Assembly: GCF_018326285.1 (NCBI RefSeq)
Contig: NZ_AP023362.1
Coordinates: forward strand, 5,642,001 to 5,706,000
Reading direction: 5' to 3'
Source: Mycolicibacterium sp. TY81
GTDB lineage: Bacteria > Actinomycetota > Actinomycetes > Mycobacteriales > Mycobacteriaceae
Length of the DNA stretch: 64,000 nt
Every line of letters begins with the position of its first letter. Position 1 is the stretch's first letter. Below the pieces are notes generated by a model. That model was not told the origin of the DNA, searched no databases, and saw nothing but the letters and a program-made list of their open reading frames with translations. The position numbers were made by a program, and so were the translations under genes. Shown in pieces: positions 46,110-64,000 of the stretch.

Positions 46110-47797
<1,688 letters not shown>

Positions 47798-47847: not shown

Positions 47848-47946
47848 CGGCATCAGTGATTCGTCCATTACGGCCGCATACGTTGCGCGGGAGTCGGAAG
47901 CCGACCCTTGAAAGCCGACCATCGGCCGACACCGAAAGTAGGACCC

Positions 47947-49059
47947 GTGAAGTTCACCAGCATCGGTAAAGCATTCGTCGTCACCGCAGCGGCCGCATCG
48001 CTTGCCGTCGGCATGACCGCGTGTGGCAACGACAACACCTCCGGCACTTCGTCGTCGTCGGCGTCCGGTTCGTCTGCCGAGTGTGGCGGCAAGAACGCGC
48101 TGACCGCCGAGGGCTCGACCGCGCAGCAGAACGCGATCGCCGAGTTCAACAAGGCCTGGGGCCAGGTGTGCGCCGGCAAGAACCTGTCCTACAACGGCAC
48201 CGGCTCGGGTGCCGGCCGCCAGCAGTTCATCGCCAAGCAGGTCGACTTCGCCGGTTCCGACTCGGCGCTGGCCAAGGAGCAGATCGAGAAGGCCGCCGAG
48301 CGCTGCGGTGGCAACCCGGCGTGGAACCTGCCGCTGGTCTTCGGCCCCGTCGCTCTGGCCTACCACCTCGAAGGCGTGAGCAAGCTCGTCGTCAACGCCG
48401 ACGTGCTGGCCAAGATCTTCCAGGGTGAGATCAAGAAGTGGAACGACCCGGCCATCGCCGCGCTGAACGCCGGCACCACCCTGCCGGACACCGACATCAA
48501 GCCGGTCTACCGCTCGGACTCGTCGGGCACCACCGACAACTTCCAGAAGTACCTGGCCGCCGCGGCTCCCGAGAGCTGGAAGAAGGGCGCCGGTAGCGAG
48601 TTCCAGGGCGGCGCCGGTGAAGGCGCGCAGAAGTCGGCCGGCGTCGTGCAGGCCGTCCAGGCCACCCCGGGCGCCATCGGTTACGTCGAGAAGAGCCCGG
48701 CCGCAGCCGCCGGGCTGCCGTTCGCGCAGATCGACAACGGTTCGGGCGCAGTCGAACTGACCGACGACAACGCCAAGAAGGCCATCGCCGCCGCCAAGTT
48801 CGCCAAGGACGGCAACGACCTGGCTCTCGACCTGAAGTCGCTGTACTCGACCAAGGAAGCCGGCGCCTACCCGCTGGTGCTGGCCACCTACGAGATCGTC
48901 TGCTCGAAGGGCTACGACGCCGACACCGCCGCCGCGGTGAAGTCGTTCCTGAAGGTCGCCGCCAACCAGGGCCAGGCCAACCTGTCGAAGGCGGGCTACA
49001 TCCCGCTGCCCGACGCCTTCAAGGCGCGTCTGCTGCAGTCGGTCGACGCAATCGCTTAA
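47947..49059 (+). CDS. pstS: Phosphate-binding lipoprotein PstS, resident operon
   Basis: A 370-residue periplasmic-type binding protein anchored as a lipoprotein. The signal peptide runs to lipobox VGMTAC with Cys26. The phosphate-contact loops are LTAEGSTAQQNAI and [16 protein letters not shown], and IKKWNDPAI matches mycobacterial PstS. It starts on GTG after GTAGGA. It lies behind a Pho box and, with pstC and the truncated pstA, forms the host's operon after mshD, the usual chromosomal site. Confidence 0.95.
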   Translation: MKFTSIGKAFVVTAAAASLAVGMTACGNDNTSGTSSSSASGSSAECGGKNALTAEGSTAQQNAIAEFNKAWGQVCAGKNLSYNGTGSGAGRQQFIAKQVDFAGSDSALAKEQIEKAAERCGGNPAWNLPLVFGPVALAYHLEGVSKLVVNADVLAKIFQGEIKKWNDPAIAALNAGTTLPDTDIKPVYRSDSSGTTDNFQKYLAAAAPESWKKGAGSEFQGGAGEGAQKSAGVVQAVQATPGAIGYVEKSPAAAAGLPFAQIDNGSGAVELTDDNAKKAIAAAKFAKDGNDLALDLKSLYSTKEAGAYPLVLATYEIVCSKGYDADTAAAVKSFLKVAANQGQANLSKAGYIPLPDAFKARLLQSVDAIA

Positions 49060-49070
49060 GCAGTGCTGGC

Positions 49071-49106
49071 GCTCCGGTTCCATCGCAGTAAGGATGGAAC
49101 CGGAGC
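49071..49106 (+). other. pstS-pstC intercistronic hairpin, resident operon
   Basis: Perfect 14-bp arms GCTCCGGTTCCATC (49071-49084) and GATGGAACCGGAGC (49093-49106) with an 8-base loop, 11 bp after the pstS stop. Such hairpins protect upstream mRNA or partially terminate, giving more binding protein than membrane subunits. The second pst operon has a similar one at 60192-60220. Confidence 0.75.
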
Positions 49107-49131
49107 CCACGACCGTTAGGTTCCTGACAGG

Positions 49132-50163
49132 ATGACAGTGACAACACCGAATCCAGCCGACGCGGGGTCGGGGGAGGCAATTGCCGCACACTTCCCCGAG
49201 CCGACGCCGGTGTCTCTCGACCCGTCGAAGGGCTCGAAAGTTCGCCTGGGCGACCGGATTTTCCGCCTACTCGCCGAGGGTTCCGGCGTACTGATCGTCG
49301 CGCTCATCGCGGCCATCGGTGTGTTCCTGCTGTGGCGCGCCATCCCGGCGCTGGCCCGCAACAAGGAGAACTTCTTCACCTTCGGCGGCAACTGGGTCAC
49401 CACCGACACCTCCGCGATGCACTTCGGCATCCTCGATCTGCTGCAGGTCACCGTCTTCGTGTCGGTGTTCGCGCTGCTGATCGCGATGCCGGTCGCACTG
49501 GGTATCGCGATCTTCGTCACGCAGTACGCGCCGCGCCGGCTGTCCGGCCCGCTGTCGTACATGGTGGACCTGCTGGCCGCGGTGCCGTCGATCGTCTACG
49601 GCGTCTGGGGTCTGTACGTGCTGGCCCCGGTGCTCAAGCCGTTTGCGTTGTGGCTCAACAAGGATCTGGGCTGGCTGTTCCTGTTCAAGACCGGTAATGC
49701 CTCGGTCGCCGGCGGTGGCACGGTCTTCACCGCGGGCATCGTGCTCGCGGTGATGATCCTGCCGATCATCACCGCGGTGAGCCGTGAGGTCTTCGTGCAG
49801 ACGCCGCGCGGTCAGATCGAGGCCGCACTGGCGCTGGGTGCCACCCGCTGGGAAGTCGTGCGCACCACCGTCCTGCCGTTCGGGCTGTCGGGCTACATCA
49901 GCGGCGCCATGCTCGGCCTCGGCCGCGCTCTCGGTGAGACCATCGCGCTGCTGATCATCCTGCGCGGCACGCAAACCCAGTTCAGCTGGACCCTGTTCGA
50001 CGGCGGCTATACGTTCGCGAGCAAGATCGCCGCGACCGCAAGCGAATTCAACGACCAGTACAAGGCGGGCGCCTACATCGCCGCCGGCCTGGTGCTGTTC
50101 ATCCTCACCTTCGTGGTGAACTCCGCGGCACGCGCCGTCGTGGCCGGAAGGGGCGCGAAATGA
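49132..50163 (+). CDS. pstC: Phosphate ABC transporter permease PstC, resident operon
   Basis: A 343-residue permease with six predicted membrane spans (the first at about residue 53). The EAA loop reads [25 protein letters not shown] hydrophilic N-terminus of about 40 residues precedes the first helix. The stop overlaps the pstA start by ATGA. PstC must pair with PstA to form the channel; its own partner is truncated by the inserted island. Confidence 0.94.
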
Positions 50164-50897
50164 ACGCCAAGATGGCCGCGATGCTGGAACGGCCGGTCAA
50201 GCACCAGTCTTTCGAGGGCGTCGGTTTCCGCCGCAAGGCCACCAACTGGGTGGCCACGGTGCTGGTCAGCCTGTCGGTGCTCGTGGCGCTGATCCCGCTG
50301 GTGTGGGTGCTGTATTCCGTTGTCACCAAGGGTTATGAGGCGCTGACATCGGCAGACTGGTTCACCAACTCGCAGTCCGGCATGACGGCGTTCGAGGCGG
50401 GCGGTGGTGCGTACCACGCCATCGTCGGCACCGTCCTGCAGGCGCTTGTCTGTGCTGTCATCTCGATCCCGATCGGCGTGATGGTGGCGGTGTACCTCGT
50501 GGAGTACGGCGGCGGCACCCGGCTGGGCAAGGTCACCACTTTCATGGTCGACATCCTCACCGGTGTCCCGTCGATCGTCGCCGCACTGTTCATCTACGCG
50601 CTGTGGGTGGCCACCCTGGGCTTCCAGCGCACCGGTTTCGCGGTGTCGCTGTCGCTGGTGTTGCTGATGATCCCGGTCATCGTGCGGTCCACAGAAGAGA
50701 TGCTGCGCATCGTCCCGATGGACCTGCGTGAGGCCAGCTACGCGCTTGGCATTCCCAAGTGGAAAACCATTGTGCGCATTGTCATCCCGACTGCACGGCG
50801 CGTTCTATATCCGACACTTCTGTTGTGGTTGAATCTCGGTTCACCACGATTGGGGGTCTCGCGATGGGTGCGTGTAGATGGCGTTTGCACCGGCTGA
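50160..50897 (+). pseudogene. pstA: PstA permease truncated by an inserted mobile element
   Basis: The frame begins like a normal PstA and matches the second pstA closely up to IPKWKTIVRIVIPTA, about residue 212, ending near base 50795. It then runs 33 codons into foreign sequence (RRVLYPTLLLWLNL...) before a stop at 50897. The family normally has about 300 residues; the lost part includes the last membrane helices, while the EAA loop ([13 protein letters not shown]) is kept. The host transporter is therefore almost certainly inactive. The 3' part and pstB are not in the remaining 13 kb. Confidence 0.95.
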
Positions 50898-52315
50898 CGC
50901 TGGATGAAGCGCGACTATCGGAGGTTTCTGAACTAGCGGGCCTGGGAGTGCAGCTGGGTGCATTGGGGTCACGGTTGGGCGCACTTCCAGGTCAGCGGAT
51001 TGTCCTCGACCCGAGCGGCTTCCCTGACCTGCGAATCAACGCTTTCTTGGCTTCCGCACGTATGCGAAACATGGCCGATACAACGAATCGCGACTACTCG
51101 CAATCGCTGTTGTTGTGGTTGAACTTTCTGGACATCAGGGGGGTCCAGTGGTGGACCGCGACGTCCGACGATGCGGAGGAGTTCGAGTTCTGGCGAACCA
51201 CTGACCCCGCGAACCCGGAGCCGGTCGGTACATCGACGTTCGCCAAAGATGTTGCGGCGTGCAAGAAGTTCTATCGCTGGGTGGCCGCCCGGTATCCGGA
51301 TGTGTCGGACATTTTCGCGGAAGTTGCGTTTCCGCGCGCTAAGCGCGAGGCGCGAGTGAGGTGGCTTGATCCGGCGGCAATTGCTCGGTGGCGTGATGTT
51401 GGTGTAAGGGGTCGAGACTTGTCGGGTCGGAGAGACAGATCGTGGAAAGGTCGAAATGAGCAGCGAGACAGCGCATTTGTCGACGGCCTCTACGGTACCG
51501 GCCTGCGGCTTACCGAATGGGGCAGCATCGTGCTGCCCGAGCTGGCCAAGCTGGAATTCGGTCGCAACTTCTTCACATCGCGGCTTGCCGATGCCTGCGC
51601 CAAAGGTGGCTACGGGCATCCCTACTGGGTTCCGCGAGAGGTGCTCAGCGCAGTATCCGCCTACGTCGAGGGTGCCCGTGCACGGGCGGTACGCGATGCG
51701 CAGACTGCTGGCCGATACGATCGGATCAAAGATCGCAGCGTGATCTGTAAGCAGTCCCGCGCCGGTCGCGTCGAGTATGTCGATTCGACAGGGAGGCGTA
51801 TACGGACTTCATGGAACGAGCTCACGCCAGGGGTACGACGAAAGCTATTTCGGGAGAACGTATCCGGGTTGGAGCCGATTGCATTGTGGTTGAACGCCGA
51901 TGGCCTGCCGCGTGATCCACACGGCTGGCATCACACGTTCGACACGGCGAATACCCGGATCGCTGCGTTGGGGCTGAACGACTTCAGCTGTACACCGCAC
52001 ATGCATCGACATTCGTTCGCCCTGAAGTGGTTCGCGATCGGCAAGTTGGTGTATTCCGCACGCGTGGGTCATCTCGACGGGGCCCAGGCTGACGACTTCC
52101 GTGTGCAGTTCGGTGACACCTGGCACCTAGTACAAACCATGTTGGGCCACGCGCGGGTGGAGACGACCAAGAACGTATACCTGGAACCGTTCCGAAACCT
52201 TGAAGTCGAGGTGCTGTTGGCGCACGCGGAGGGTTTTCCGGTGCAGGAGTTCATGTCTCAAGCATTCCGGGCGCACCCGCAGGTGGCCGGTGACCCGATA
52301 CTGGAGCGGCCGTGA
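50864..52315 (+). CDS. Tyrosine recombinase 1 (TnpA-like)
   Basis: A 483-residue site-specific recombinase. The catalytic residues are in place: Arg215 in TGLRLTEWG, His379-x-x-Arg382 in PHMHRHSF, His429 in LGHARVETT and the nucleophile Tyr439 in KNVY. The ATG at 50864 is chosen because GGGGGT lies 6 bases before it; the frame open to the left is pstA and island-end sequence. The tail of truncated pstA overlaps its first 34 bp. Its stop overlaps the second recombinase by GTGA. In Tn554-type elements TnpA and TnpB act together to insert without duplication. Confidence 0.9.
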   Translation: MGACRWRLHRLTLDEARLSEVSELAGLGVQLGALGSRLGALPGQRIVLDPSGFPDLRINAFLASARMRNMADTTNRDYSQSLLLWLNFLDIRGVQWWTATSDDAEEFEFWRTTDPANPEPVGTSTFAKDVAACKKFYRWVAARYPDVSDIFAEVAFPRAKREARVRWLDPAAIARWRDVGVRGRDLSGRRDRSWKGRNEQRDSAFVDGLYGTGLRLTEWGSIVLPELAKLEFGRNFFTSRLADACAKGGYGHPYWVPREVLSAVSAYVEGARARAVRDAQTAGRYDRIKDRSVICKQSRAGRVEYVDSTGRRIRTSWNELTPGVRRKLFRENVSGLEPIALWLNADGLPRDPHGWHHTFDTANTRIAALGLNDFSCTPHMHRHSFALKWFAIGKLVYSARVGHLDGAQADDFRVQFGDTWHLVQTMLGHARVETTKNVYLEPFRNLEVEVLLAHAEGFPVQEFMSQAFRAHPQVAGDPILERP

Positions 52316-54171
52316 GCAGGCGTGGTCGCTCAGCATCGTTGCCGGATGGCGCTGGCTTAACGACGCACGGCGTTCTCCAGGATGGAGTGACCGTGCGATG
52401 GTTTGCCGCCGAGGAGCGGGTCGCCAACGACTACAGTTTCGCGCTGCTGCCAGTGCCGGCCTTGATGCAGCGGCAACTCGCTGCAGCATTCGCTCGCCGA
52501 ATCGCACCAGGGTCGGGCATCGGTAGCCTCTCCGCTGTTCGGCACCAATACGTTGCCGTTCAACGATTTTGCACGTTTCTTGCTGGGCTCTCTGATCCGC
52601 CACCGGATTGTTCGGCGTTGGCGCCCAGTCATATTGATGCGTTTCTGGTCTACTGCCGTGGTGACAACGGCGTCGTCCGGGAGTGGTTCCGTTTGATCAA
52701 GGCGATGCTTCGCGTGTGCGATTCGCTAACGCCGGCGGTGAGTGTAAAGGTCCGCGAACCCAGTCCAAAGAACGTGCCTGTGTCGCGGAAGACCAGCTAC
52801 AGCCGGGCTGAGTTCACCCGGATTGCGCAGGCAGCGCGCTCGGATCTACGCAGGGCCGCGACACGGATCCGTGCCAATCGGGCGCTGCTAGCGCGCTACC
52901 GCGCCGGCACCGTTGCCGACACCGATCGGCGTTGCGAGTTACTGGATTTCGTGGATGTGCACGGCGATGTTCCCCGCTATGACGGGGTCACGAAGTGGGG
53001 GCAAGTCGTCGCCAAAGGGTGGGTCACCCAGGGCGGATTTGGCTCGGTGCCCGACATTATGAGCTGGTTAAGCCTGTCAGCGGTGGAGCTAGCAGCGGCC
53101 GCGATCTTGCTGGCGGTGATGACAGGGCAGAACCCGAGCGTGATCAAAGGTACGCCGGCCAAGCATCACCGCGGGGATGGATACGTTGACGATGGACTGG
53201 CGACGGTGATCATTGATGTGCATAAGCCGCGTCGCGGCCGGCGCGCCTACATGAATGCGGTGTTGGCTGATGTGCCGGATTGGATTTCGGTACCGGCCAA
53301 CCCGGATCGCCTGACGTCGCGCGATCAGCTGCACACCCCGTTCGGGGTGTACGCCCTGCTGCACGAGTTGACGATGAGCGCACGGCAGAGGTGCGGCAGT
53401 GACCGCTTGTTGGTCGGCTATCACGGGTGTGGCGGAACCGGCATTGGGCGGGGATTTCGTCCGTTGGGGAGCCGCGAACCGCTCGAAAATTGGTCAAACA
53501 GCCGCCGTGTGCCCAGTGACGCCGGGGATGCACCGTTGCGTGTGACGCTGGATCGGCTGCGGTTGACGTTTGTTGAGCTGCATCAGAAACCGGTGGCACA
53601 CACCGAGGAAACCCTGGTCAACGAATACCTGGGGCGCAATCGGGGCAATCTGGTGGCCTATCGCGACGTGGTCGAAGCGGCCCTGCAAGAGGAAGTCACC
53701 AAGGCGCGTAGCAGGGCAGTCATCGACGTCCTGACCAAAGAGGAACTGGCGCAGGCGAATCCGAAGGAACTGGCGGCGGCGCACGGTCTCAATGCCGACG
53801 TGTTCAAACGGATGCTTGCTCGTGAACTCGACACCGTGATGGTCGCTTGCACCGACAACGTGAACAGTCCCTTCACCGGACCGGATCAGCCGTGCAGCGC
53901 CTCGTTCATGATGTGTCTAGGCTGCCCCTGTGCCCGTGCACTACCGCACCACCTGCCTGTGCAGGTGCTGGTCCATGATCATTTGCAGGCGCGTAAATCC
54001 CACATGACCCCCCTGGTGTGGGTGCAGCGGTTTGGGCTGCCGCACGCGCAGTTAACAGACCTGCTCGACCGCCACGACCCAATCGACATCGCCGATGCGC
54101 GGGCCGGGGCGACGCCTGACCAACGGCGTCTGGTCGAGCGTTTCGTCAATCGTGAACTGGATATCCGATGA
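52312..54171 (+). CDS. Tyrosine recombinase 2, catalytic residues degenerate
   Basis: A 619-residue recombinase-like protein, similar in length to TnpB of Tn554. Box I reads MTGQNPSVIKG, so the catalytic Arg is replaced (Asn274). Box II reads DRLRLTF (Asp414 for His, Arg417 kept), the later GH is replaced (LGRN), and a Tyr is at 450 (VAYRDVV). It therefore probably does not cut DNA alone but could help bind ends or hold the complex. The frame is intact and coupled to both neighbours by 4-bp overlaps, which argues that it is kept for a purpose. Confidence 0.82.
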   Translation: MSRRGRSASLPDGAGLTTHGVLQDGVTVRWFAAEERVANDYSFALLPVPALMQRQLAAAFARRIAPGSGIGSLSAVRHQYVAVQRFCTFLAGLSDPPPDCSALAPSHIDAFLVYCRGDNGVVREWFRLIKAMLRVCDSLTPAVSVKVREPSPKNVPVSRKTSYSRAEFTRIAQAARSDLRRAATRIRANRALLARYRAGTVADTDRRCELLDFVDVHGDVPRYDGVTKWGQVVAKGWVTQGGFGSVPDIMSWLSLSAVELAAAAILLAVMTGQNPSVIKGTPAKHHRGDGYVDDGLATVIIDVHKPRRGRRAYMNAVLADVPDWISVPANPDRLTSRDQLHTPFGVYALLHELTMSARQRCGSDRLLVGYHGCGGTGIGRGFRPLGSREPLENWSNSRRVPSDAGDAPLRVTLDRLRLTFVELHQKPVAHTEETLVNEYLGRNRGNLVAYRDVVEAALQEEVTKARSRAVIDVLTKEELAQANPKELAAAHGLNADVFKRMLARELDTVMVACTDNVNSPFTGPDQPCSASFMMCLGCPCARALPHHLPVQVLVHDHLQARKSHMTPLVWVQRFGLPHAQLTDLLDRHDPIDIADARAGATPDQRRLVERFVNRELDIR

Positions 54172-56369
54172 GTCCGTCACCCGGCCACCCAGCCCGCGAC
54201 GACCAATCCGGCAGTGTCGCACCGTATCCTGCACACACTGTGAGGGTCGCTGACAGTGTCGACAGCGACGCCGGCCCCGTCACGACCTGGCCGTCCGAAC
54301 AGACCCCGGTTCTGCTCACACGCGAACTCGTGCCCGGCACCGACCTGAGTGCGCTCAGCCTGTTCGGTGAGGACCGCTGGTGCTTGAGCCCCGCATTCTT
54401 CGAAGAACATGCCGACGCCGCCAGTCTGAACTTCACGGCGATACCGCAGCCGCTGCGACTGGCGGCCAAACACTACATCTGGCAACTGATCAACCGGGAT
54501 TATCCGGTCCCGTTTCTGCGGTTCGGCGAAGAGCGCACTGCTATCCAGACGATCATGTCGTCGTGGGGATCGTTCAAATACTTCACCGTGTGGCTGCACA
54601 GCCGCGAGATCACCGAGTTTGCTCAGGTCGACGCTGATCTGCTCGACGCTTACGTCAATGATCTTGCCGCACAAGAGATATCCATGGACAGCAGATTCCG
54701 CCGGGTGTGGGAGGTGCGCCGGTTGTGGAGCTACCGCAGTGTGCTGCCAGAGAGCATGCGGCTGCCTGAGGCGCGGCCGTGGCACGACGATGCACCACGC
54801 GAATTGTTCGGAGCCAAACGCGGCTACCGCGAGAACGCGACCCCGCGCATCGCTGAGTCGACCATGCAAGCGTTGCTGTTCTGGTCGCTACAGTTCGTAG
54901 AGAACTTCGCGCCCGACATCCTGGCCGCCCATGCCGAGTCGTGCCGGCTGAAAGACCGTGCGCCGGAAGGACGTCGGGCCCGAGGCCCAGTCGTTTTCCG
55001 CCCTCCGACTGGCCAGATAGAGGCGCGGATGGCGGCCTACCTGCAAGGGTTGAAAGACAGTGGCGGATCCTTGCCGGGGAAACTGGATTCCGTCGGGGTT
55101 GCCCAGGTGGACTGGCGCCACATCGGCATGATTCTTGAATGCACCCTACGCGCCTATTCGGCTGTTAATCCGGTGGGCCAGATGGTGCTCGATTCGGGTC
55201 TGCCGATCGCGGACCATGCCTACCTAAACACCCCCATCACGGCCGAACTTGATGGCCGGCCTTGGCGTGATACGCCGATCATCCACCAAGAGGCTCGTGG
55301 TTTGGCCCTGCATCTGAGTACGGCGTGCATGATCGTCATCGCCTATCTGTCCGGCGCACGGCCGGGTGAGGTGCTGAACTTGCGCCGCGGCTGCATCGAC
55401 TACGACGTGAGTACGGACATGTGGCTCATGTCGGGGGTGTTCTTCAAAAACGCCGTCGATGTCAACGGCAATAAGCTCCCCGGCGGGATGCGGCGCCAGG
55501 ATCCGTGGGTGGTGGTCAAACCGGTCGCCGACGCCGTGGCTGTTTCGGAGCGTCTACACGATCACGATGTGATTTTCCCGGCCCGCATCGAGGCATTGCG
55601 GAGAGACCGGTCTGCGCGGCGGGCGGGCGAAGCGCGGATGGCCTCGCGCGCCAATGGGGACATCGAACTGTTCATCGGGTGGGTCAACAACTATGCCGCT
55701 GCCAGGGGGCGTCCCGGCATCCCCACGGATCCGCATGGTGCGATTACCAATTCGCGGTTCCGGCGGACTTTGGCCTGGTTCATCCGGCGCCGCCCCCGAG
55801 GGCTGGTCGCCGGCGCCATCCAATACGGTCATGTGCACACTCGGCTGATCCAGGGATACGCAGGCGACTACAACTCCGGCTTCCCCGACGAATACGCTTA
55901 CGAAGATTTCTTGGCACGCCTGGACGAACTCGCCGACGACGAACAAGCCCTCGCCAGCAGCGAACGTGTGTCGGGTCCGGCCGCAGAGGAATACCGCCGC
56001 CGCGTGCCCGCCGCCGCACGAAAATTCGCCGGGCATGTTCTGACCTCCGAGCGCCAAGCCCGTGATCTGGTGACCAACCCGCTGCTGCAGATTTACCACG
56101 GCGACGGCATGACCTGTGTCTTCAATCCGCACCAGGCGGCCTGTCAATTGCGCGGCGGGGTCGATGATCCGACAGTGACCCCGGATATCGATGACTGTCA
56201 GCCTCGCTGTCGGAACATTGCGCGCACCGACCGCGATATCGCCGTCATTCGGGCCCGCCGCGACGAACTGCGTTCGATTCTCGACGAGGACTTGGCCCCA
56301 CCCATTCGACGCCAGCGTGAACAGTTGGAGTTGGACCGGCTTAACACCGTCCTGGAGAGGCACAGATGA
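54168..56369 (+). CDS. Tyrosine recombinase 3 (TnpB-like)
   Basis: A 733-residue recombinase. Catalytic-site elements are Arg398 in SGARPGEVLNL, Arg533 in SRFRRTLA (the preceding His is Arg530), His555 in YGHVHTRL and Tyr564 in QGYAG. Apart from the His-to-Arg change this is a full catalytic set, so it is probably active. The C-terminal part ends in a long charged helix-rich region (RRQREQLELDRL). It starts on ATG overlapping the previous stop and overlaps the following gene's start by ATGA. Confidence 0.88.
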   Translation: MSPSPGHPARDDQSGSVAPYPAHTVRVADSVDSDAGPVTTWPSEQTPVLLTRELVPGTDLSALSLFGEDRWCLSPAFFEEHADAASLNFTAIPQPLRLAAKHYIWQLINRDYPVPFLRFGEERTAIQTIMSSWGSFKYFTVWLHSREITEFAQVDADLLDAYVNDLAAQEISMDSRFRRVWEVRRLWSYRSVLPESMRLPEARPWHDDAPRELFGAKRGYRENATPRIAESTMQALLFWSLQFVENFAPDILAAHAESCRLKDRAPEGRRARGPVVFRPPTGQIEARMAAYLQGLKDSGGSLPGKLDSVGVAQVDWRHIGMILECTLRAYSAVNPVGQMVLDSGLPIADHAYLNTPITAELDGRPWRDTPIIHQEARGLALHLSTACMIVIAYLSGARPGEVLNLRRGCIDYDVSTDMWLMSGVFFKNAVDVNGNKLPGGMRRQDPWVVVKPVADAVAVSERLHDHDVIFPARIEALRRDRSARRAGEARMASRANGDIELFIGWVNNYAAARGRPGIPTDPHGAITNSRFRRTLAWFIRRRPRGLVAGAIQYGHVHTRLIQGYAGDYNSGFPDEYAYEDFLARLDELADDEQALASSERVSGPAAEEYRRRVPAAARKFAGHVLTSERQARDLVTNPLLQIYHGDGMTCVFNPHQAACQLRGGVDDPTVTPDIDDCQPRCRNIARTDRDIAVIRARRDELRSILDEDLAPPIRRQREQLELDRLNTVLERHR

Positions 56370-56788
56370 ACCCATCGTCGTTCCCCGGCGGAGAGACTGA
56401 TGTTGTGCGCCAACAGATTCTGGCCGCGATGGACCGGCTGCTGGCGGGTGAGCCGCTGCGTTCCACCGGCCGGTTGAGTGTCTCGCAACTGGCGGTCGAG
56501 GCCGACGTCGGCCGCTGGCAGCTGACCCATCAGCACGTCGATCTCAAAGAACTATTCCAGGCCCGCGTGCGCAACGCTGACGGGGCGCCGGCCGCTTTTA
56601 CCCGCCAGCTCAGCGACTTCGAGAAACTCAAACGCGACCACACCGCGCTGCTCGCCCACTGCGCCGAGCTGGAGGACCGCCTCAACACCTACGCCAGTGC
56701 CATTCAGCTGCTGGTGTTGGAGCGCGATGCTGCCGCGCGGAAGGCTCCTGTCGCCGACATCGCGTCACGGCGCACCGGCCGCAGCTGA
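56366..56788 (+). CDS. TnpC-like small accessory protein (DUF6262 type)
   Basis: A 140-residue protein that is the fourth gene of the recombinase operon. The N-terminal half contains a helix-turn-helix-like stretch (LSVSQLAVEADVGRWQL); the second half is a likely coiled coil (FEKLKRDHTALLAHCAELEDRLN). It fits the TnpC position and architecture of Tn554-type elements, where the protein affects orientation and efficiency of insertion. The family name is inferred from architecture. Confidence 0.72.
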   Translation: MNPSSFPGGETDVVRQQILAAMDRLLAGEPLRSTGRLSVSQLAVEADVGRWQLTHQHVDLKELFQARVRNADGAPAAFTRQLSDFEKLKRDHTALLAHCAELEDRLNTYASAIQLLVLERDAAARKAPVADIASRRTGRS

Positions 56789-56851
56789 CCTCCGACAAGC
56801 GCGGCCGCACGCCTGCGCGAAGCTGTGGCGTGCGACCGGCCTGCTGGGGAT

Positions 56852-57328
56852 TCAGCAGCAGGAGGCGGCGCTGGGCTGACCGGCTTCAGCGGCCGCGGTG
56901 CCGCCGCAGCAGACACCGCCTTCGCCGGAGTCGTCGAGAAGGTTGGGGCTGGAGCCGAAGGTGTCCGAATCGGCGAGGACGGTGTAGACCTCCCACTTCT
57001 CGCCGGCCGGTCCGGTCACCCACACTTTGTCCTGGGTGGCGAAACAGCACGTGGTGCCGATTTCCTCGTCGGTGAACAATCCTTCGCCGGTCAACCGGGC
57101 GATCTCGCTGTGGACCTGCTCGCTGGAGGCCACCTCGACGCCGAGATGGTTGATGGTGCCGCCCTTGCCGGGGTTCTCCAGCAGCACGAGCTTCAGCGGC
57201 GGCTCGGTCACCGCGAAGTTGGCGTAACCCGGCTTCACCTTGGCCGGGCTGATGCCAAACAGCTTGGAGTAGAACGTGATTGCCTCGTCGAGGTTGTCGA
57301 CGTTAAGGGCGAGCTGGACACGGGACAT
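56852..57328 (-). CDS. ArsI/CadI-like VOC dioxygenase
   Basis: A 158-residue VOC-fold enzyme. ArsI cleaves the carbon-arsenic bond of trivalent organoarsenicals using Fe(II). The expected metal ligands are Gln5, His61 (NHLGVEV) and Glu113 (KWEVYTV), and the vicinal Cys94-Cys95 (TTCCFATQ) is the As-binding site. A Cys-rich tail (GVCCGG ... SCC) is also present. It equally resembles mycobacterial CadI (Rv2641), beside an arsR. The ATG at 57328 has GGAGG upstream. It is divergent from arsR, with paired operators between. Confidence 0.88.
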   Translation of the reverse strand: MSRVQLALNVDNLDEAITFYSKLFGISPAKVKPGYANFAVTEPPLKLVLLENPGKGGTINHLGVEVASSEQVHSEIARLTGEGLFTDEEIGTTCCFATQDKVWVTGPAGEKWEVYTVLADSDTFGSSPNLLDDSGEGGVCCGGTAAAEAGQPSAASCC

Positions 57329-57352
57329 GGTCGAGACCTCCAGTATTGGATG

Positions 57353-57407
57353 TGACATATATCGAATTGGCGCCAACCTCAGCTTGCCACCTTTTTGATA
57401 TATGTCA
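57353..57407. promoter_or_regulatory. Paired ArsR-type operators in the arsI-arsR divergent promoter
   Basis: TGACATATATC (57353-57363) and GATATATGTCA (57397-57407) are perfect inverted copies of one 11-bp motif, 33 bp apart. Each half is part of a near-palindrome of form TTGAnATATnTCAA. The AT-rich motif resembles ArsR/SmtB-family operators, so ArsR may bind both sites and control both directions. Confidence 0.75.
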
Positions 57408-57429
57408 AGATCGCTGGCACGATGGTGTC

Positions 57430-57789
57430 ATGCCCAAGGCGTTACCGATGATCGACATGTCCGAGCCGGTGTGTTGCAACCCGGTGGCCTCGGGCCCGAT
57501 GGGCGATGAGGATGCGCTGGCGGTGGCCATGCGGCTCAAGGCAATCGCCGACCCGGTGCGCATCAAGATCTTGTCGTCCCTGTTCAGCGCGGCCGATGGC
57601 GAGCAGACCAGCGGGGACCTGTCCGAAGCGCTCGGCGTAGGAGAGTCCACGATCAGTCATCACATCGGGCAGCTGCGCACCGCGGGGCTGGTGTTGTCCG
57701 ATCGCCGCGGCATGAGGGTGTTCCACCGGGTGAAACCTGATGCGCTGCAAGCGTTGTGTGTGGTACTCGATCCCCGCTGCTGCCAATAG
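57430..57789 (+). CDS. arsR: ArsR/SmtB-family metalloregulator
   Basis: A 119-residue repressor with a winged helix (LKAIADPVRIKILSSLF...EALGVGESTISHHIGQLRTAGLV). N-terminal Cys15-Cys16 (EPVCCNP) and C-terminal Cys117-Cys118 (DPRCC) could bind As(III), Cd(II) or Pb(II), which would release DNA. The ATG at 57430 is chosen; earlier in-frame codons would extend into the operator. It is divergent from the arsI-like gene and probably controls both. Confidence 0.9.
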   Translation: MPKALPMIDMSEPVCCNPVASGPMGDEDALAVAMRLKAIADPVRIKILSSLFSAADGEQTSGDLSEALGVGESTISHHIGQLRTAGLVLSDRRGMRVFHRVKPDALQALCVVLDPRCCQ

Positions 57790-57800
57790 CGGGGCGGCCT

Positions 57801-58106
57801 CTAGGCGCGCCCGGGGTATGCGCGCAGCAGCCGCTCGATGGTGCGCCGCTGCCCAGGATGGGGCAGCCGGCCGGTGACACCGACAATCGCCACCGCGACC
57901 TCCACCGGATCGGCCGGGCGGTCCACCAAGTGCTCGACCACCTGCTGGGCCTGCTTCGGCGTCAGCGACGGCGGGCCCGCCAACGCCATGAGCGGTGAAT
58001 ACCCCAGGCCCGGAGCCTCATTCGGGTAGCCCGCCCGGAACCAATCGCGCAACGCCCGCAGGCGGCGCGTGAGCGGGACGGAGGCTGTGCCGGCCACCGT
58101 GACCAC
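57801..58106 (-). CDS. DUF3349 protein
   Basis: A 101-residue protein with the pattern LRDWFRAGYPNEAPGLGYSPLMAL and AVAIVGVTGRLPHPGQRRTIERLL, which matches the mycobacterial DUF3349 family (small helical proteins of unknown function, such as Rv0543c). It starts on GTG 6 bp after the stop of the ArsR-ArsC fusion, so it is the second gene of that operon. Why it travels with arsenic genes is not known. Confidence 0.78.
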   Translation of the reverse strand: MVTVAGTASVPLTRRLRALRDWFRAGYPNEAPGLGYSPLMALAGPPSLTPKQAQQVVEHLVDRPADPVEVAVAIVGVTGRLPHPGQRRTIERLLRAYPGRA

Positions 58107-58112
58107 CGGACC

Positions 58113-58805
58113 TCAGCCCGCCCGCAGCCGCGGGGCGACGTGATCGATGCGTTCGACAAGCGTGTCGACCACGATGTCGAAGGCATCGGGCGTCGCCGCG
58201 CGGACCGGATCGGGGATCGACCAGTGGATCCGTTGCGGGTCGGCGGGCAGTTCCTCGTGCGCGTTGTCACACACCGCGATCACCAGGTCGCTGGGCTGCA
58301 GCACGTCGTCGAGGCGCTGGGGTGTGCGCGCCGGCATCGGCACCTGCCGACGCTGCGCGGCCGCCAGTGCCAAGGGATGAATGTGCTCGGCGGGATGGGT
58401 GCCGGCCGAGGTGGCCGGCACGGCGCTCATACGGTTCCAGATCGCCGCCGCGAGCTGACTGCGCGCAGAATTCTGCGTGCAGACGAAAACCACCCGGCGA
58501 GCCCGCCGCCCCGCCACGGGCACCATGGCATCCAACGCGCGGCGGTCCAAATGCAAGTACGTACGGCGCCCGTCGGCTTCGGAGCGGCGGCGGGTGATGA
58601 GCCCGGCCTCGGCCAGCACCCGCAGATGATGGGCCAACAGATTCGACCCGACACTCAGCAGCTCTTGAAGTTCCGACGGGGACGCGTCTGCCAGCAACAA
58701 ATGGTCAACGATGGTGAGGCGGCCCGGATCGGCCAGTGCGGCGTGGATGGCCGCCCGGTGGTGCACGGTGTCACTCGACTCCATAGGCATTGACTCAATG
58801 TTCAT
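58113..58805 (-). CDS. ArsR-arsenate reductase (LMW phosphatase-type) fusion protein
   Basis: About 230 residues. The N-terminal ArsR winged helix covers residues 15-92 (AIHAALADPGRLTIVDHLLLAD...LLAHHLRVLAEAGLITRRR). It is followed by a low-molecular-weight-phosphatase fold with P-loop CTQNSAR (Cys109 to Arg115) and the DP loop IPDPVRAA. Such fusions sense and reduce arsenate with mycothiol or thioredoxin as donor. An operator (ACTCAAT/ATTGAGT) overlaps the ATG at 58805; starts at 58790 or 58784 are also possible. It is divergent from the pst operon. Confidence 0.88.
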   Translation of the reverse strand: MNIESMPMESSDTVHHRAAIHAALADPGRLTIVDHLLLADASPSELQELLSVGSNLLAHHLRVLAEAGLITRRRSEADGRRTYLHLDRRALDAMVPVAGRRARRVVFVCTQNSARSQLAAAIWNRMSAVPATSAGTHPAEHIHPLALAAAQRRQVPMPARTPQRLDDVLQPSDLVIAVCDNAHEELPADPQRIHWSIPDPVRAATPDAFDIVVDTLVERIDHVAPRLRAG

Positions 58806-58810
58806 TGAGT
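58793..58810. promoter_or_regulatory. Operator overlapping the start of the ArsR-ArsC fusion gene
   Basis: ACTCAAT (58793-58799), a 4-bp spacer and ATTGAGT (58804-58810) are a perfect inverted repeat. Size and AT-rich arms fit an ArsR-family site; autoregulation by the fusion protein is likely. Confidence 0.7.
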
Positions 58811-58865
58811 TATCACGATACGTCAAGGTAGGGCATACCGCTGCAGCGGACACCCTCCCAGCGTG

Positions 58866-58883
58866 GTTCATCTTCCGTTCATC
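58866..58883 (+). promoter_or_regulatory. Pho box upstream of the island-borne pst operon
   Basis: GTTCATC (58866-58872), spacer TTCC and GTTCATC (58877-58883) are identical direct repeats with an 11-bp period, more regular than in the resident box. It lies 148 bp before pstS2 and 61 bp from the divergent ArsR-ArsC start. Regulation by host phosphate starvation (RegX3-type) is inferred. Confidence 0.8.
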
Positions 58884-59030
58884 GTGATTGGGCCGGACGT
58901 TCATGGGGGACGCCTAGGTTCTGTTGCCGGACGGAGACAGAACCGTCTAGCGGAGCGACATTTTCGTGCTCGGCCCAACCCGGTGACGCAAATTTTTGCG
59001 GACGTCACCCCAATGCTGTGAGGGAGTTCT

Positions 59031-60149
59031 GTGAAGCTCAACCGATTTGGCGTCTCCGTGAGCTTGGTGGCCGCCGGAGCGCTGGCGCTGTCGGCGTGCG
59101 GCAGCGACAACAACGCGTCCTCGGGTGGCTCGAGCGCCAACGGCGGTTCGTCCAACGTGTCCTGCGGCGGCAAGAAGGCACTCAAGGCCAGCGGCTCGAC
59201 CGCGCAGGCCAACGCGATGACCCGCTTCGTCAAGGCCTACGAGGAGGCCTGCTCGGGCTACACCCTGAACTACACCTCCAACGGTTCGGGCGCCGGCGTG
59301 AGCGAATTCCTCGGCAAGCAGACCGATTTCGGTGGCTCGGACTCCCCGCTGAACGCCAAGAAGGGCGAGATCGACAAGGCCAAGGACCGCTGCGGCTCGG
59401 AAGCCTGGAACCTGCCGGTCGTCTTCGGCCCGATCGCCATCACCTACAACGTCCCCGGCGTGACCTCCCTGTCGCTCGACGGCCCCACCGCCGCCAAGAT
59501 CTTCAACGGTGAGATCAAGACCTGGAACGACCCGGCCATCGCCGCACTGAACAACGGCGTCGCCCTGCCGGCCGACCCGATCCACGTGGTCTTCCGCAGC
59601 GACGAATCCGGCACCACCGACAACTTCCAGAAGTACCTGGACGCGGCCTCTGACGGCGCCTGGGGCAAGGGCGCGGGCAAGGCGTTCGCCGGCGGCGTCG
59701 GCGAAGGTGCCAAGGGCAACGAGGGCACCTCGGCCGCCATCAAGAACACCCCCGGATCGATCACCTACAACGAGTGGTCCTTCGCCAAGACCCAGGGCCT
59801 GACCACCGCCAAGGTCGTCACCTCGGCCGGACCGGAGCCCGTCGACATCAGCACCGAGACCGTGGGTAAGACCATCGCCGGCGCCAAGGTCAAGGGCCAG
59901 GGCAACGACCTGGTGCTCGACACCGCCACCTTCTACAAGCCGACTCAGGCCGGCTCGTACCCGATCGTGTTGGCCACCTACGAGATCGTGTGCTCGAAGT
60001 ACGCCGACGCCGACACCGGCAAGGCGGTCAAGGCGTTCCTGCAGTCGACGATCACCGGTGGGCAGAAGGGCCTGGACAGCAACGGCTACATCCCGATCCC
60101 GGCCGAGTTCCAGTCGAAGTTGACCACCGCCGTCAACGCGATCTCCTGA
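59031..60149 (+). CDS. pstS: Phosphate-binding lipoprotein PstS, island copy
   Basis: A 372-residue lipoprotein with lipobox LSAC (Cys23). The phosphate loops are [12 protein letters not shown] and [15 protein letters not shown]. At the first loop the resident protein has AEGSTAQQ in place of ASGSTAQA, a difference next to the phosphate-contact serine/threonine. The GTG at 59031 has GGGAG upstream. It is placed beside arsenate-reduction genes, so it may select phosphate over arsenate. Confidence 0.94.
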
Positions 60150-60191
60150 TTTGAGTTCTCATGGCGTTACAACCCGATATTTCGGGAACCC

Positions 60192-60220
60192 CGCGGGTGC
60201 CGTCGTCGACGGCACCCGCG
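60192..60220 (+). other. pstS-pstC intercistronic hairpin, island operon
   Basis: Perfect 13-bp arms CGCGGGTGCCGTC (60192-60204) and GACGGCACCCGCG (60208-60220) with a 3-base loop. It lies between pstS2 and the more likely pstC2 start, and argues against the earlier ATG at 60161. It parallels the hairpin of the resident operon but shares no sequence with it. Confidence 0.75.
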
Positions 60221-60238
60221 CCGGGGGACAATTCACGG

Positions 60239-61210
60239 ATGTCTGATCCGATCACGCCCCCGAAACCGGCCGCCCCGAAACGGACCAGCACCGGCGCCCT
60301 CGGCGACCGGATTTTCAAGGCCATTGCCGTCGCCGCCGGGGCCACGATCGTCATCGCCATCGCGCTGATCGCCGTGTTCCTGTTGATCCAGGCGATCCCG
60401 TCGTTGATGGCCAACCACGACAACTTCTTCACCAGCAGCGAGTTCAAGACCTCCGACGGTGACCACCTGGCGTTCGGTATCGCCGACCTGTTCATGGTCA
60501 CGGTGCTCAGCGCAGGATTCGCACTGGTCTTGGCGGTACCAGTGGCGATCGGCATCGCCCTGTTCCTGACGCACTACGCCCCGGCCCGACTGTCCCGGCC
60601 GTTCGGCATCGCGGTCGACCTGCTGGCCGCGGTCCCCTCCATCGTCTTCGGCTTGTGGGGCATCTTCGTGCTGGCACCCCAGCTCTCGCCGGTGGCCGAG
60701 TTCCTCAACCGCAACCTGGGCTGGCTGTTCCTGTTCAAAGAGGGCAACGTGTCGCTAGTTGGTGGCGGCACCATCTTCACCGCGGGCATCGTCCTGGCGG
60801 TGATGATCTTGCCGATCATCACCTCGGTGAGCCGGGAAGTGTTCCGCCAGACCCCGATTCCGCACATCGAAGCCGCCCAGGCCCTGGGCGCGACGAAGTG
60901 GGAAGTGGTGCGCATGACGGTGCTGCCGTTCGGCCGCAGCGGCGTGGTGGCCGCGTCCATGCTGGGCCTGGGTCGTGCCCTCGGTGAGACCGTCGCGGTC
61001 CTGATCATCCTGCGGTCGGCGGCCAAGGCCGGTAACTGGTCGCTGTTCGACGGTGGCTACACCTTCGCATCGAAGATCGCTTCGGCCGCAGCCGAATTCA
61101 GCGCCCCGCTACCTACGGGCGCCTACATCGCTGCGGGCTTCGTCCTGTTCGCGCTGACCTTCGCGGTCAACGCTGCCGCACGCGCCATCGCCGGATCGAA
61201 GGTGAACTGA
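60239..61210 (+). CDS. pstC: Phosphate ABC transporter permease PstC, island copy
   Basis: A 323-residue permease with six hydrophobic segments and EAA loop [24 protein letters not shown]. The ATG at 60239 ([13 protein letters not shown]) is preferred over 60161 because the 60192-60220 hairpin would otherwise be coding. GGGGGAC lies upstream. It is strongly similar to the resident PstC and is complete. Next comes pstA2, 1 base after its stop. Confidence 0.92.
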
Positions 61211-61211
61211 G

Positions 61212-62114
61212 ATGAACGTCGCCACACTGGATGAGCCGATCAAGAGCCCGACTTTTCACCCGACCGCGCGCGGTCGGCGCATCAAGAACGCGGTGGCCAC
61301 CACGCTGGTGGGTAGCGCCTTCGGGGTCGCACTGATCCCGCTGGTCTGGGTGCTCTACATCGTCATCGAGCGAGGCTGGCGCGCCATCGTCAGCTCCACC
61401 TGGTGGACCCGGTCGCTGCAAGGCGTGCTTCCTGAAGAGTTCGCCGGCGGTGTGTACCACGCGCTGTACGGCACCATCGTGCAGGCGAGTATCGCTGCGG
61501 TGCTGGCGATCCCGCTCGGGGTGATGGCCGCAATCTTCCTCGTCGAGTACGGCGGTGGCCGTCTGGCCCGCACCACTACCTTCATGGTGGACGTGCTGGC
61601 CGGTGTGCCGTCGATCGTCGCGGCGCTGTTCATCTTCAGCTTGTGGATCACCACCCTGGGCTTCACCCAGAGCGCGTTCGCGGTCTCGCTGGCGCTGGTG
61701 CTGCTGATGCTGCCAGTGGTGGTCCGATCCACCGAGGAAATGCTCAAGCTCGTCCCCAATGATCTGCGGGAAGCCAGCTACGCCTTGGGCATTCCGAAGT
61801 GGAAGACCATCGCACGCATCGTGGTGCCCACGGCCCTTCCCGGCATCATCACCGGCGTGCTGCTCTCGATCGCCCGCATCATCGGCGAGACCGCGCCGGT
61901 GCTGGTCTTGGTCGGCTATGCCCGTTCGATCAACTTCGACATTTTCGGCGGCAACATGGCCTCGCTGCCGCTGTTGATCTACACCGAGCTGATCAACCCG
62001 CAGCCCGCAGGCCAACTACGGGTGTGGGGCGCGGCACTGACGCTCATCATCGTGGTCGCCATTTTGATCCTCGCCGCCGCGGCCACGACCCGGCTGCTCA
62101 CTCGCAAACGCTGA
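61212..62114 (+). CDS. pstA: Phosphate ABC transporter permease PstA, island copy
   Basis: A 300-residue permease with six membrane spans and EAA loop [20 protein letters not shown], followed by [24 protein letters not shown], the part missing from the resident copy. It is the complete counterpart of the truncated gene. It can pair with PstC of either operon in principle, since the proteins are alike. Confidence 0.94.
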
Positions 62115-62133
62115 ATCGACAGGAACTTTCGTC

Positions 62134-62910
62134 ATGGCCAAACGTATCGACCTCAAAGACGTCAACATCTTCTACGGCGCGTTCCACGCCGTAGCGGATG
62201 TCTCGCTGTCGGTGCAGCCGCGTAGCGTCACCGCGTTCATCGGGCCCTCGGGTTGCGGCAAGTCCACGGTGCTGCGCTCGCTGAACCGCATGCACGAGGT
62301 CACCCCCGGTGCCCGCGTTCAGGGCTCGGTGCTGCTCGACGGCGAGGACATCTACGCCGCCGGTGTGGACCCCGTCGGGGTGCGCCGCACCATCGGCATG
62401 GTGTTCCAGCGGCCGAACCCGTTCCCCACCATGTCCATTCGCGACAACGTCATCGCGGGGTTGAAGCTGCAGGGTGTGCGCAACAAGAAGACCCTCGATG
62501 AGGTCGTCGAGCGCTCGCTCAAAGGCGCCAACCTGTGGAACGAGGTCAAAGACCGCCTCGACAAGCCGGGGTCGGGCCTTTCGGGTGGTCAGCAGCAGCG
62601 GCTGTGCATCGCTCGGGCGATCGCGGTGCAGCCCGATGTGCTGCTGATGGACGAGCCATGCTCGGCGCTGGACCCGATCTCCACGTTGGCGATCGAGGAC
62701 CTGGTCGCCGAGCTCAAGCAGGACTACACCATCGTGATCGTCACGCACAACATGCAGCAGGCTGCCCGGGTCAGCGATCAGACGGCGTTCTTCAACCTGG
62801 AAGCCACCGGTAAGCCGGGCCGGCTGATCGAGATCGACGACACCGAGAAGATGTTCTCCAATCCCGGCAAAAAGGCGACAGAGGATTACATTTCCGGACG
62901 GTTCGGTTAG
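62134..62910 (+). CDS. pstB: Phosphate transporter ATPase PstB, island copy
   Basis: A 258-residue ABC ATPase. Walker [10 protein letters not shown] is near residue 35, the signature LSGGQQQRL near 150, Walker [13 protein letters not shown] near 170, and the His loop is [11 protein letters not shown]. Last gene of the second pst operon, and the only complete pstB in the window. The host's own pstB lies beyond the island, if it is present. Confidence 0.96.
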
Positions 62911-62919
62911 CGTCAGCGT

Positions 62920-62946
62920 GCCGCTCACGGTAGGGGCATGAGCGGC
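62920..62946 (+). terminator. Hairpin after the island pst operon
   Basis: GCCGCTCA (62920-62927) and TGAGCGGC (62939-62946) pair over 8 bp with an 11-base loop, just after the pstB stop and 33 bp before the regulator. It may partly separate the transporter and regulator transcripts. Confidence 0.5.
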
Positions 62947-62978
62947 ATCAGCGGCACAGGAAGGGTGGGCGGCACGCG

Positions 62979-63713
62979 TTGACCATCGAGGTGCGGCGAA
63001 CGAACGCGCCGATGGAGCCGGGGACCTACCGCGCGGCACTGGGTGCGCCGCGCGGCAGCCTGGTGTTGTGTGAAGTCGACTCCCGCATCGCCGCGGACCT
63101 GATGGATGAGGCCGCACGAGCGGGGATCGACACCACCTGGTGCCGCAACGGCGCTGAGACCCTGCTGGCGGTCGGCGCCGGCGCTCCGGATGTGTTGATC
63201 ATGGCCGCCCGCACCGCCACCGTCGCCGCCGCCAGCATCACCTCGGCGGTGCGCGCGACCTCCGATCTGCCAATCCTGGTGGGTGCCGCGCCCGGCGAGG
63301 AAGACCTGGCGCGTCCGGTGCTGGCGGCCGGCGCGTCAGCGGTGATCGCTCGGCCCTATGCCATCGCCGCGATTACCCCCTTCGCCCTCACCGGCGAACC
63401 CGGGCCGGCGATCCTGGTCGCCGGACCGATCCACGTCGACCGGCACGGCTACGAAACCCAGGTTCGGGGCCGCGAAGTCCAGCTCACCCACCGTGAACTG
63501 GAGCTGCTGGTGTTTCTCATCGAGCGGCGCGGCAAAGTCGCCAGCAGCGAAGAGATCAGCCGCGCGGTGTGGGGGCACCCGTCGGACACCAATACTGTTG
63601 CGGTGCATGTCAAACGACTCCGCCGGAAACTGGGCGACGATCCCGAACATGGCGAGTTCATCCGCACCGTCCGCGGGGTTGGCTACCGGCTGGCACCGTC
63701 TGTGTGCGCGTGA
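62979..63713 (+). CDS. OmpR-family regulator with degenerate receiver domain
   Basis: A 244-residue protein. The N-terminal half has receiver-like layout (LVLCEVDSRIAADLMDEAARAGID...APDVLIMAARTATVAA), but the phospho-acceptor Asp is replaced by Ala/Met residues. The C-terminal half is a clear winged helix (LTHRELELLVFLIERRGKVASSEEISRAVWGHPSDTNTVAVHVKRLRRKL). It probably binds DNA without phosphorylation, like GlnR. It lies next to pstB and may control the transporter or arsenic genes. TTG 62979 or ATG 63012 could start it. Confidence 0.82.
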   Translation: MTIEVRRTNAPMEPGTYRAALGAPRGSLVLCEVDSRIAADLMDEAARAGIDTTWCRNGAETLLAVGAGAPDVLIMAARTATVAAASITSAVRATSDLPILVGAAPGEEDLARPVLAAGASAVIARPYAIAAITPFALTGEPGPAILVAGPIHVDRHGYETQVRGREVQLTHRELELLVFLIERRGKVASSEEISRAVWGHPSDTNTVAVHVKRLRRKLGDDPEHGEFIRTVRGVGYRLAPSVCA

Positions 63714-64000
63714 GCGTCCCGGACACCGCGCCGCACTGGAACGATGCCCTGGCCGCCCTGCAGCGCTATCAGAGCCAGCGCGGCACCACCGACGTCGGCC
63801 CGAACATCCGCGCCTACGGCATCGATCTGGGCAAGTGGGTCGCCCGCTGCCGTGACGAGTACTGGGACGGGATCCTGGACCTCGATCACCTCGCTGCGCT
63901 GGAGGCGGTCACCGGCTGGCACTGGGGGCCGCCGCGTCCGGGCAGTTGGCGCCACGGGCACGATGCGCTCGCGACCTTCGCGCGCCAATCCGGCACGACG
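63710..64000 (+). CDS. Helicase-associated-domain protein, 3'-truncated by the window edge
   Basis: 97 codons are visible, from a GTG overlapping the regulator stop by GTGA. The pattern WNDALAALQRYQSQRGTTDVG, YGIDLGKWVARCRDEYWDG and LEAVTGWHWGPP is that of the helicase-associated (HA) repeat, a DNA-binding module with conserved Trp residues. The rest, possibly more HA repeats, is outside the window. Its role on the island is unknown. Confidence 0.75.
   Translation, partial: MSVPDTAPHWNDALAALQRYQSQRGTTDVGPNIRAYGIDLGKWVARCRDEYWDGILDLDHLAALEAVTGWHWGPPRPGSWRHGHDALATFARQSGTT

Follow-up and report, generated by a model that had tools for sequence, protein, structure and literature searches.

Transposon Tn554 inserts into radC and leaves no target duplication. 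GInt elements, as described by Bardaji et al. 2017 (PMC5385486), carry at one end a four-gene operon for three integrases and a small protein, exchange 6 nt, and accommodate 2.5 to 70 kb of cargo; they leave as circles in a process that requires the four genes together. Replacement of a gene by a carried copy is on record as well: for the recA island of Vibrio, PMC4405046 reasons that breaking the resident gene avoids mixed RecA, and it cites a thymidylate synthase case of carried replacement. Here, we describe an island in pstA, a gene of the phosphate transporter operon, in Mycolicibacterium sp. TY81. The stretch of DNA analyzed, hereafter the window, comprises 64,000 nucleotides of a 6.14-Mb contig (NZ_AP023362.1). 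Its host pst locus is of the type glnR-mshD-pstSCAB-phoU, and across the genus two pst alleles, type I and type II, occur between mshD and phoU. The explanation that best accounts for the data as a whole, which we hold with a probability of about 0.7, is that a site-specific island puts an end to the type I Pst permease and brings in its place a whole type II pstSCAB operon, along with the regulator of that operon, an additional pstS, and genes for arsenic resistance.

The island measures 28,781 bp and extends from 50797 to 79577 on the window scale. Host pstA (type I; PF00528) is represented to the left by its 5′ part (50160..50796, + strand), broken after residue 212; the earlier note had seen the match to PstA end at about 50795, and the host sequence in fact ends at 50796 with ...GACTGCAC. 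The break appears to fall in what we take to be the conserved EAA loop. At the left junction, host DNA (...GCAC) is followed by a 6-bp non-host coupling sequence, GGCGCG (50797..50802, +), and then by the left end of the island, TTCTATA...CTGTTGTGGTTGA (50803..50863, +), which is kept in near relatives. The right end, expected by the earlier note beyond position 64000, was found at L003:15577, 15.6 kb beyond the window; there, ...GCGAAAGAA gives way to host TGTCGG, and from L003:15578 onward the DNA is again that of the host (TG-TCGGGC), comprising the missing 3′ part of pstA, pstB, and, in the opposite direction, phoU. The cargo pst genes thus lie between the two ends and not outside the element, as the claim that it carries its own complete operon had it. 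Six relatives (G360, G250, G408, G177, G232, and G224) have the operon uninterrupted and without insert, which bears out an insertion in host pstA; the alignment with G360 runs at 96.2% identity up to 50794 and resumes at 79578. The pstA site is also uninterrupted in 28 of 29 further loci, and the anchor motif was not found in the other one (L050).

A search of 396 genomes of the genus found a relative of gene A, the first of the island's four recombination genes, in 46 (E ≤ 1e-60). One locus per genome was examined for the best 30 of these 46, and six of the 30 loci have the island at the same pstA nucleotide: the own genome (G000), Mycolicibacterium brisbanense (G240), M. wolinskyi (G273), M. 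septicum (G300), G152, and G266. The suspicion that pstA is a repeated target is thereby confirmed. The three named species, whose genomes belong to the genus searched and were matched to G240, G273, and G300 through their coordinates, were also recovered by a scan of named genomes built on an alignment of ten sequences, in which truncated host pstA stands directly before gene A at 3 of 59 loci; a pst operon was seen at none of the other 56 within the 10 kb or less covered to the right, many contigs ending sooner. All six islands carry pstS-pstC-pstA-pstB-regulator together with ACR3, arsR, and arsC genes. The matched pst frames of the cargo are free of stops in every island, and one stop each occurs in the matched stretch of ACR3 (G152) and of ArsC1 (M. 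wolinskyi). Gene order varies among the six, and the right end of the M. wolinskyi island lies at the end of another contig. Precise insertion at one nucleotide is therefore observed in six genomes, each time with a complete pst operon belonging to one of three lineages. By their sequences, the pstA islands combine a broken target gene with a complete, divergent copy inside the element.

The coupling bases differ between islands: GGCGCG in the own island, CTGGCG in M. septicum and G266, GCGGCA in M. brisbanense and G152, and GCGGCG in M. wolinskyi. In 6/6 islands, it is the end next to the integrase gene that bears these foreign 6 bp, and a target duplication is absent from the junctions. Together, the missing duplication and the six extra bases that vary from island to island fit a tyrosine-recombinase exchange over 6 bp. 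Joining of the ends would form imperfect inverted repeats with a 6-bp spacer (TTCTATAGC / GCGATAGAA; in the own island TTCTATATC / GCGAAAGAA).

To the left of the broken gene stand further genes of the host locus. The genes at 46035..47797 (+), a glnR-type regulator and what we take from mycobacterial gene order to be mshD, are the neighbors of the host pst locus across the genus, with matches at E ≤ 1e-100 in 381 of the 396 genomes and a conserved gene order (the name glnR is assumed in the same way). Host pstS and pstC, both type I, follow at 47908..50163 (+) in a region of 96% DNA identity with G360. Among the matches in the own genome, G142, G143, and G144, no full-length Pst-type PstA was seen other than that of the cargo. 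We suggest that the cargo operon is kept as a replacement for the broken host operon, and it is plausible that, as proposed earlier, integration need not cost fitness.

The islands have integrated more than once. Among M. septicum, G266, and M. brisbanense, the type II pstSCA (∼3 kb) and ACR3 segments are 100.0% identical (pstB rows were left out for M. brisbanense, where the best match is evidently the host copy); the host pst genes of the same three genomes share 93.9% identity between M. septicum and G266 and 82.6 to 82.9% with M. brisbanense. Identical cargo segments in diverged hosts, together with different 6-bp sequences, mean that M. brisbanense and M. septicum/G266 acquired their islands recently and in separate events. 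For M. septicum and G266, which share their 6 bp, the difference in identity suggests separate events. A midpoint-rooted FastTree phylogeny of genes A, B, and C (48 taxa) unites the six pstA islands in a single clade with support 0.994, neighbored by the JOB5 plasmid and the G153 island, the nearest islands outside that clade. The G153 island (L237) sits in a gene that by eye resembles enoyl-CoA hydratase. On the JOB5 plasmid (L056), no annotated pst or ars genes were seen within the 14 kb viewed on each side. An IQ-TREE phylogeny of PstC and PstA (33 taxa, 24 of them chromosomal type II genes that ranked highest) places the cargo operons in three positions: the own island with G185, G361, and G351; M. 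wolinskyi with the G078 group; and M. septicum, M. brisbanense, G266, and G152 by themselves. Three changes are required by the branches starred in that tree, and a single change suffices in 0% of 200 bootstrap trees. Three positions imply repeated transfer of operons between islands and chromosomes, or repeated acquisition.

Chromosomal type II operons also stand at the host locus itself: in G185 (L224), G361 (L225), and G351 (L226), type II replaces type I. It is possible, although to us doubtful, that the islands reflect allelic exchange at the locus, by homologous recombination with incoming type II alleles through the shared glnR, mshD, pstB, and phoU; these three genomes may then be later stages, with type I remains and recombinases lost. 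Type II standing where type I is expected agrees with such an exchange, as do the ∼92% identity between the PstB proteins of the two types and the three cargo lineages. Against it, a protein search found no recombinase in 17 to 20 kb at the three loci, and the presence of a simple type II locus in species as distant as G179 and G291 means that it may be no more than an old allele. The same three genomes prompted the opposite thought, in which the own species would natively have type II and type I would be the intruder. This idea was rejected because G360, G250, G408, G177, and G232 have only type I in 20 to 40 kb and are absent from the list of cargo-like PstA proteins (E ≤ 1e-110).

The two alleles differ in their association with arsenic genes. 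In a search for ars genes similar to those of the own island, such genes lie beside type II at 11 of 14 further loci (15/23 with nine earlier loci included) and beside type I at 0 of 19 (0/25 with six earlier loci included). Fisher tests of this adjacency give 1.9e-6 for the further loci and 4.5e-7 for all, values computed on related genomes that are not independent draws. The type II loci are the top of a similarity ranking rather than a random sample, and in G191 and G361 the contig stops within the locus. The type I count leaves out L308, a locus with another pst type: in this genome (G012), a different, distant pst set stands in the opposite direction beside two phoU-like matches. The type II count leaves out L294 to L299, with which it would be 15/29. 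The earlier note had held that related genomes with this pst duplication, an intact pstA, and no recombinases would refute its reading, and on this point the result is mixed: second sets with no recombinases beside them do exist in these six genomes, as type II-like pstS-pstC-pstA with a further pstS, but they occupy other places in the genome, have neither pstB nor ars genes, and differ from the operon carried here.

PHO boxes of Streptomyces are described as 11-nt repeats, and ArsR is described as leaving the pstS1 promoter when it binds arsenite (PMC7866108, PMC7533571). We derived an operator pattern from an alignment of the intergenic regions between the ArsR-ArsC gene and pstS and counted it at ≤3 mismatches. 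In the window, a putative ArsR-type operator, ATTGACTCAATnnnnATTGAG, matches without mismatch at 58789..58809 (+; chance expectation 0.03 at ≤3 mismatches). The pattern precedes the cargo pstS in 6/6 islands and the second pstS in 5/5, no second pstS being seen in M. wolinskyi; among type II loci on chromosomes, it occurs at 13 of the 15 that have ars genes and at 1 of the 8 that lack them, as against 0 of 30 type I loci and 0 of 400 random 450-base stretches of the window. No operator was found before the type I pstS of the window; the row for the own host pstS was dropped from the counts as an artifact, its sequence starting inside the gene and almost all of it having therefore been scanned. 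A PHO-box-like direct repeat of 11 bp, conserved across species, lies at 58866..58883 (+) with 0 mismatches. At ≤2 mismatches, such repeats were found before 28/30 type I pstS genes and 29/29 type II pstS genes at the locus or in islands, relative to 1/400 random stretches; the window as a whole has three matches against 1.37 expected. The second pstS, a separate gene at L003:7208-8299, has the ArsR-type operator and no PHO-box-like repeat.

From these sequences, the island apparently replaces a phosphate-controlled transporter by one under both phosphate and arsenic control. In the mechanism that we propose, recombination genes of the GInt/SE kind would integrate the island between C and TGTCGG of the host type I pstA, and in one step the host permease would be ended and a full substitute supplied. 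Breaking the resident gene would also prevent mixed transporters, as was reasoned for RecA. Arsenite would release ArsR and raise expression of the island Pst and of the second PstS. We consider it an even chance that this is why the swap matters: type II would respond to arsenic by way of ArsR and to phosphate need by way of the PHO box, and phosphate uptake would thereby continue under arsenic with the system controlled by phosphate alone switched off. The earlier note had guessed that the new transporter could admit less arsenate. Adjacency to ars genes and the ArsR-type operator strengthen that idea, under which arsenate uptake would be lower.

Several observations weigh against the replacement reading. 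Type II pst and ars genes are also neighbors on chromosomes, and pst could have accompanied ars. A chromosomal ars-pst block might have been captured for its arsenic genes, the second pst being a by-product and the match with the target a coincidence. Ars genes are frequent at type II loci, and the own cargo is nearly colinear with the G361 locus (ArsR, ArsRC, pstSCAB, response regulator, CoA-disulfide reductase, ArsC, ACR3, ArsR) at ∼84 to 89% identity. We nevertheless rate capture of this sort as unlikely, given that all six pstA islands hold a complete pst operon, drawn from three lineages, and that gene order differs between islands, so that one captured block fails to explain all. The arsenic link itself has exceptions: G185 and G351 have type II with neither nearby ars genes nor an operator, and the operator appears once among the eight type II loci that lack ars. 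From the sequences, exchange of operons between islands and chromosomes may also have run in either direction.

The remaining points concern the need for a substitute. One Pit gene and four PhnD-like matches over the cut-off are present in the genome, and loss of Pst may therefore be bearable. As a control, we examined related islands that split or abut dprA, likewise a conserved gene (L070, L071, L075, L077, L106, and L109). In the four genomes where dprA is split on one contig, no dprA match lies between the halves, which are 6.1 kb (G425), 12.2 kb (G426), 6.1 kb (G427), and 7.3 kb (G429) apart; the two halves of the G424 gene are on different contigs, and for G428 only the 5′ half was seen. 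Further dprA genes occur elsewhere in G426 and G428, and no intact dprA was seen in G424, G425, G427, or G429. The dprA islands thus carry no spare copy, but they are short, and those of 6.1 kb hardly exceed genes A to D, which makes the control weak. Broken dprA genes and alternative phosphate genes would both agree with an insertion that simply damaged a transporter the cell can do without, the second operon having no replacement role. This we judge improbable: the matched cargo pst frames have stayed stop-free in all six islands, and at the locus of six relatives an intact Pst has been retained.

At the target, PstA reads PTALPG in 30/30 mycobacterial type II copies and PTALSG in 2/2 type I copies, and the bases that align with host TGTCGG in seven type II genes are TTCCCG, TGCCCG, or TGCCGG. 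Shielding of the cargo pstA by these differing bases is only possible: donor and host 6 bp differ in all six insertions, and TCTCGG is found in the host gene of M. wolinskyi, which shows that insertion does not depend on identity at these bases and makes protection of the cargo doubtful.

If replacement is the right reading, the island may be viewed, tentatively and with less confidence than the replacement itself, as a transporter-exchange device: the choice of target would be coupled to the cargo, one integration would switch the cell to a Pst also released by arsenic through ArsR and free of mixed transporters, and an arsenic-linked pst allele would be spread through the genus. Apart from that view, target site and cargo of a mobile island appear here to evolve together: in several species, and from several lineages, a conserved nutrient transporter is broken and a version linked to arsenic genes arrives. 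Displacement of a core operon from one species to the next could follow this testable path. Because carriers and close non-carriers exist, arsenate exclusion by the pst of arsenic islands becomes testable.

The four recombination genes form an overlapping tandem immediately inside the left end. Gene A (50864..52315, +) encodes a tyrosine recombinase, or integrase (PF02899, E 7.7e-8; PF00589 below the cut-off), with the motif R215 H379 R382 H429 Y439 read by eye from the alignment. Gene B (52312..54171, +) encodes a recombinase-like protein, Tfp/GinC-like in kind according to alignments, that has an Asn (N274, by eye) in place of the first catalytic Arg; no Pfam family above the cut-off and no PDB match were found for it. 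Gene C (54168..56369, +) encodes a large putative recombinase with the motif R398 R533 H555 Y564 (by eye), its catalytic arginines, histidine, and tyrosine being invariant across 23 aligned rows; profile matches are weak (XerD, E 0.022; phage integrase in 3/23 rows). Of the three tyrosine recombinases counted in the earlier note, the first is thus supported by Pfam and the third by its motif and weak profiles, and the second lacks both the first Arg and a profile match. Gene D (56366..56788, +) encodes a small accessory protein in the position of GinD, Srap, and TnpC, and is the fourth gene in most relatives; it matched no family, a loose-threshold Pfam search giving scattered weak matches only. 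The four-gene module also occurs in actinobacterial plasmids and chromosomes, and near relatives with the conserved left end TTCTATAGCC...CTGTTGT occupy other targets, including dprA and, by eye, an enoyl-CoA-hydratase-like gene. On the Sphingomonas plasmid pISP0 (L279), from an alphaproteobacterium, a related A-B-C order is present without an annotated small fourth gene like D. In Nocardia takedensis (L084), a module relative with arsC-, arsR-, and arsI-like cargo occupies a 9.7-kb contig.

Within the window, the cargo begins with arsI/cadI (56852..57376, −; NF041414 above the cut-off) and an arsR gene of the Rv2640c family (57346..57789, +; NF041413 above the cut-off). An ArsR-ArsC fusion (58113..58904, −), an ArsR-type regulator joined to an ArsC-type reductase, is divergent from the cargo pstS, an arrangement that recurs in several other species. 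The type II genes pstS, pstC, pstA, and pstB occupy 59031..62910 (+; TIGR00975 and TIGR00972 above the cut-off), and an OmpR-type regulator (62979..63713, +; PF00486) that is a member of the type II cluster follows pstB in the six islands. The island continues through 63714..64000 (+) and beyond, up to L003:15577, with genes for helicase-associated repeats, a CoA-disulfide-reductase-like gene, two arsC-like genes, an arsN1-like gene, ACR3, arsR, DUF6602, the second pstS, and, near the right end at L003:12590-15145, IS3-type transposase-like genes named by eye.

The earlier note called the element Tn554-like. The absence of target duplication and the 6 bp are the Tn554-type signature, and these alone fit: the target is pstA in six genomes rather than radC, and there are four genes and not three. 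PMC10214605 describes for Tn554 a 6-bp footprint and a small accessory gene, as here, with three genes and no Tfp counterpart, in contrast to the four of the own module and of most relatives. SE (strand-biased circularizing integrative elements), in the same source, resemble the island, with an integrase, a recombinase-fold protein without the full motif, a large recombinase, and a small protein; their order intA-tfp-intB-srap appears to match ours by gene size and motifs, and they too have imperfect end repeats with a 6-bp spacer. However, the SE described there come from Gammaproteobacteria, whereas this island is in soil mycobacteria, and their foreign 6 bp lie at the integrase-distal end, opposite to all six of our islands. 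GInt (PMC5385486) share the four-gene end operon, the 6-nt exchange, and a possible ABC transporter gene as target, and the GInt layout of four genes with a small protein at one end is present here, genes B and C being without above-cut-off profile support. They differ in that the protein lacking the first Arg, GinC, is the product of the third gene and here of the second, and in that the cargo, which in our island would replace the target gene, is not described as doing so in that account; the words Mycobacterium, Actinobacteria, and arsen- are absent from its main text. Gene order, read from sizes and motifs, agrees with SE, whereas GInt are the better match in size and cargo, and the six foreign bases are opposite to SE; judged by these sequence features, the island is of the GInt/SE kind and is assigned to neither one.

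With respect to cargo, the arsenic islands of Li et al. 2013 (PMC3834237) likewise have pst operons near ars genes (10 pst1 operons in 21 islands). Almost all strains in that account have another pst or phn operon elsewhere, whereas the host pst is broken here, and its main text mentions neither integrase nor transposase. In the open-licence literature, we found no whole transporter operon replaced by an island in its target gene in six genomes with an arsenic link. The nearest counterpart is RME, the recA island of Vibrio cholerae S24 (PMC4405046), in which a conserved gene is likewise broken at a specific site and a divergent complete copy carried; as described, it involves one gene and another integrase, and ours involves an operon, six genomes, three cargo lineages, and a link to arsenic. 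That an island can bring along a substitute for the very gene in which it sits is already known from the recA island.

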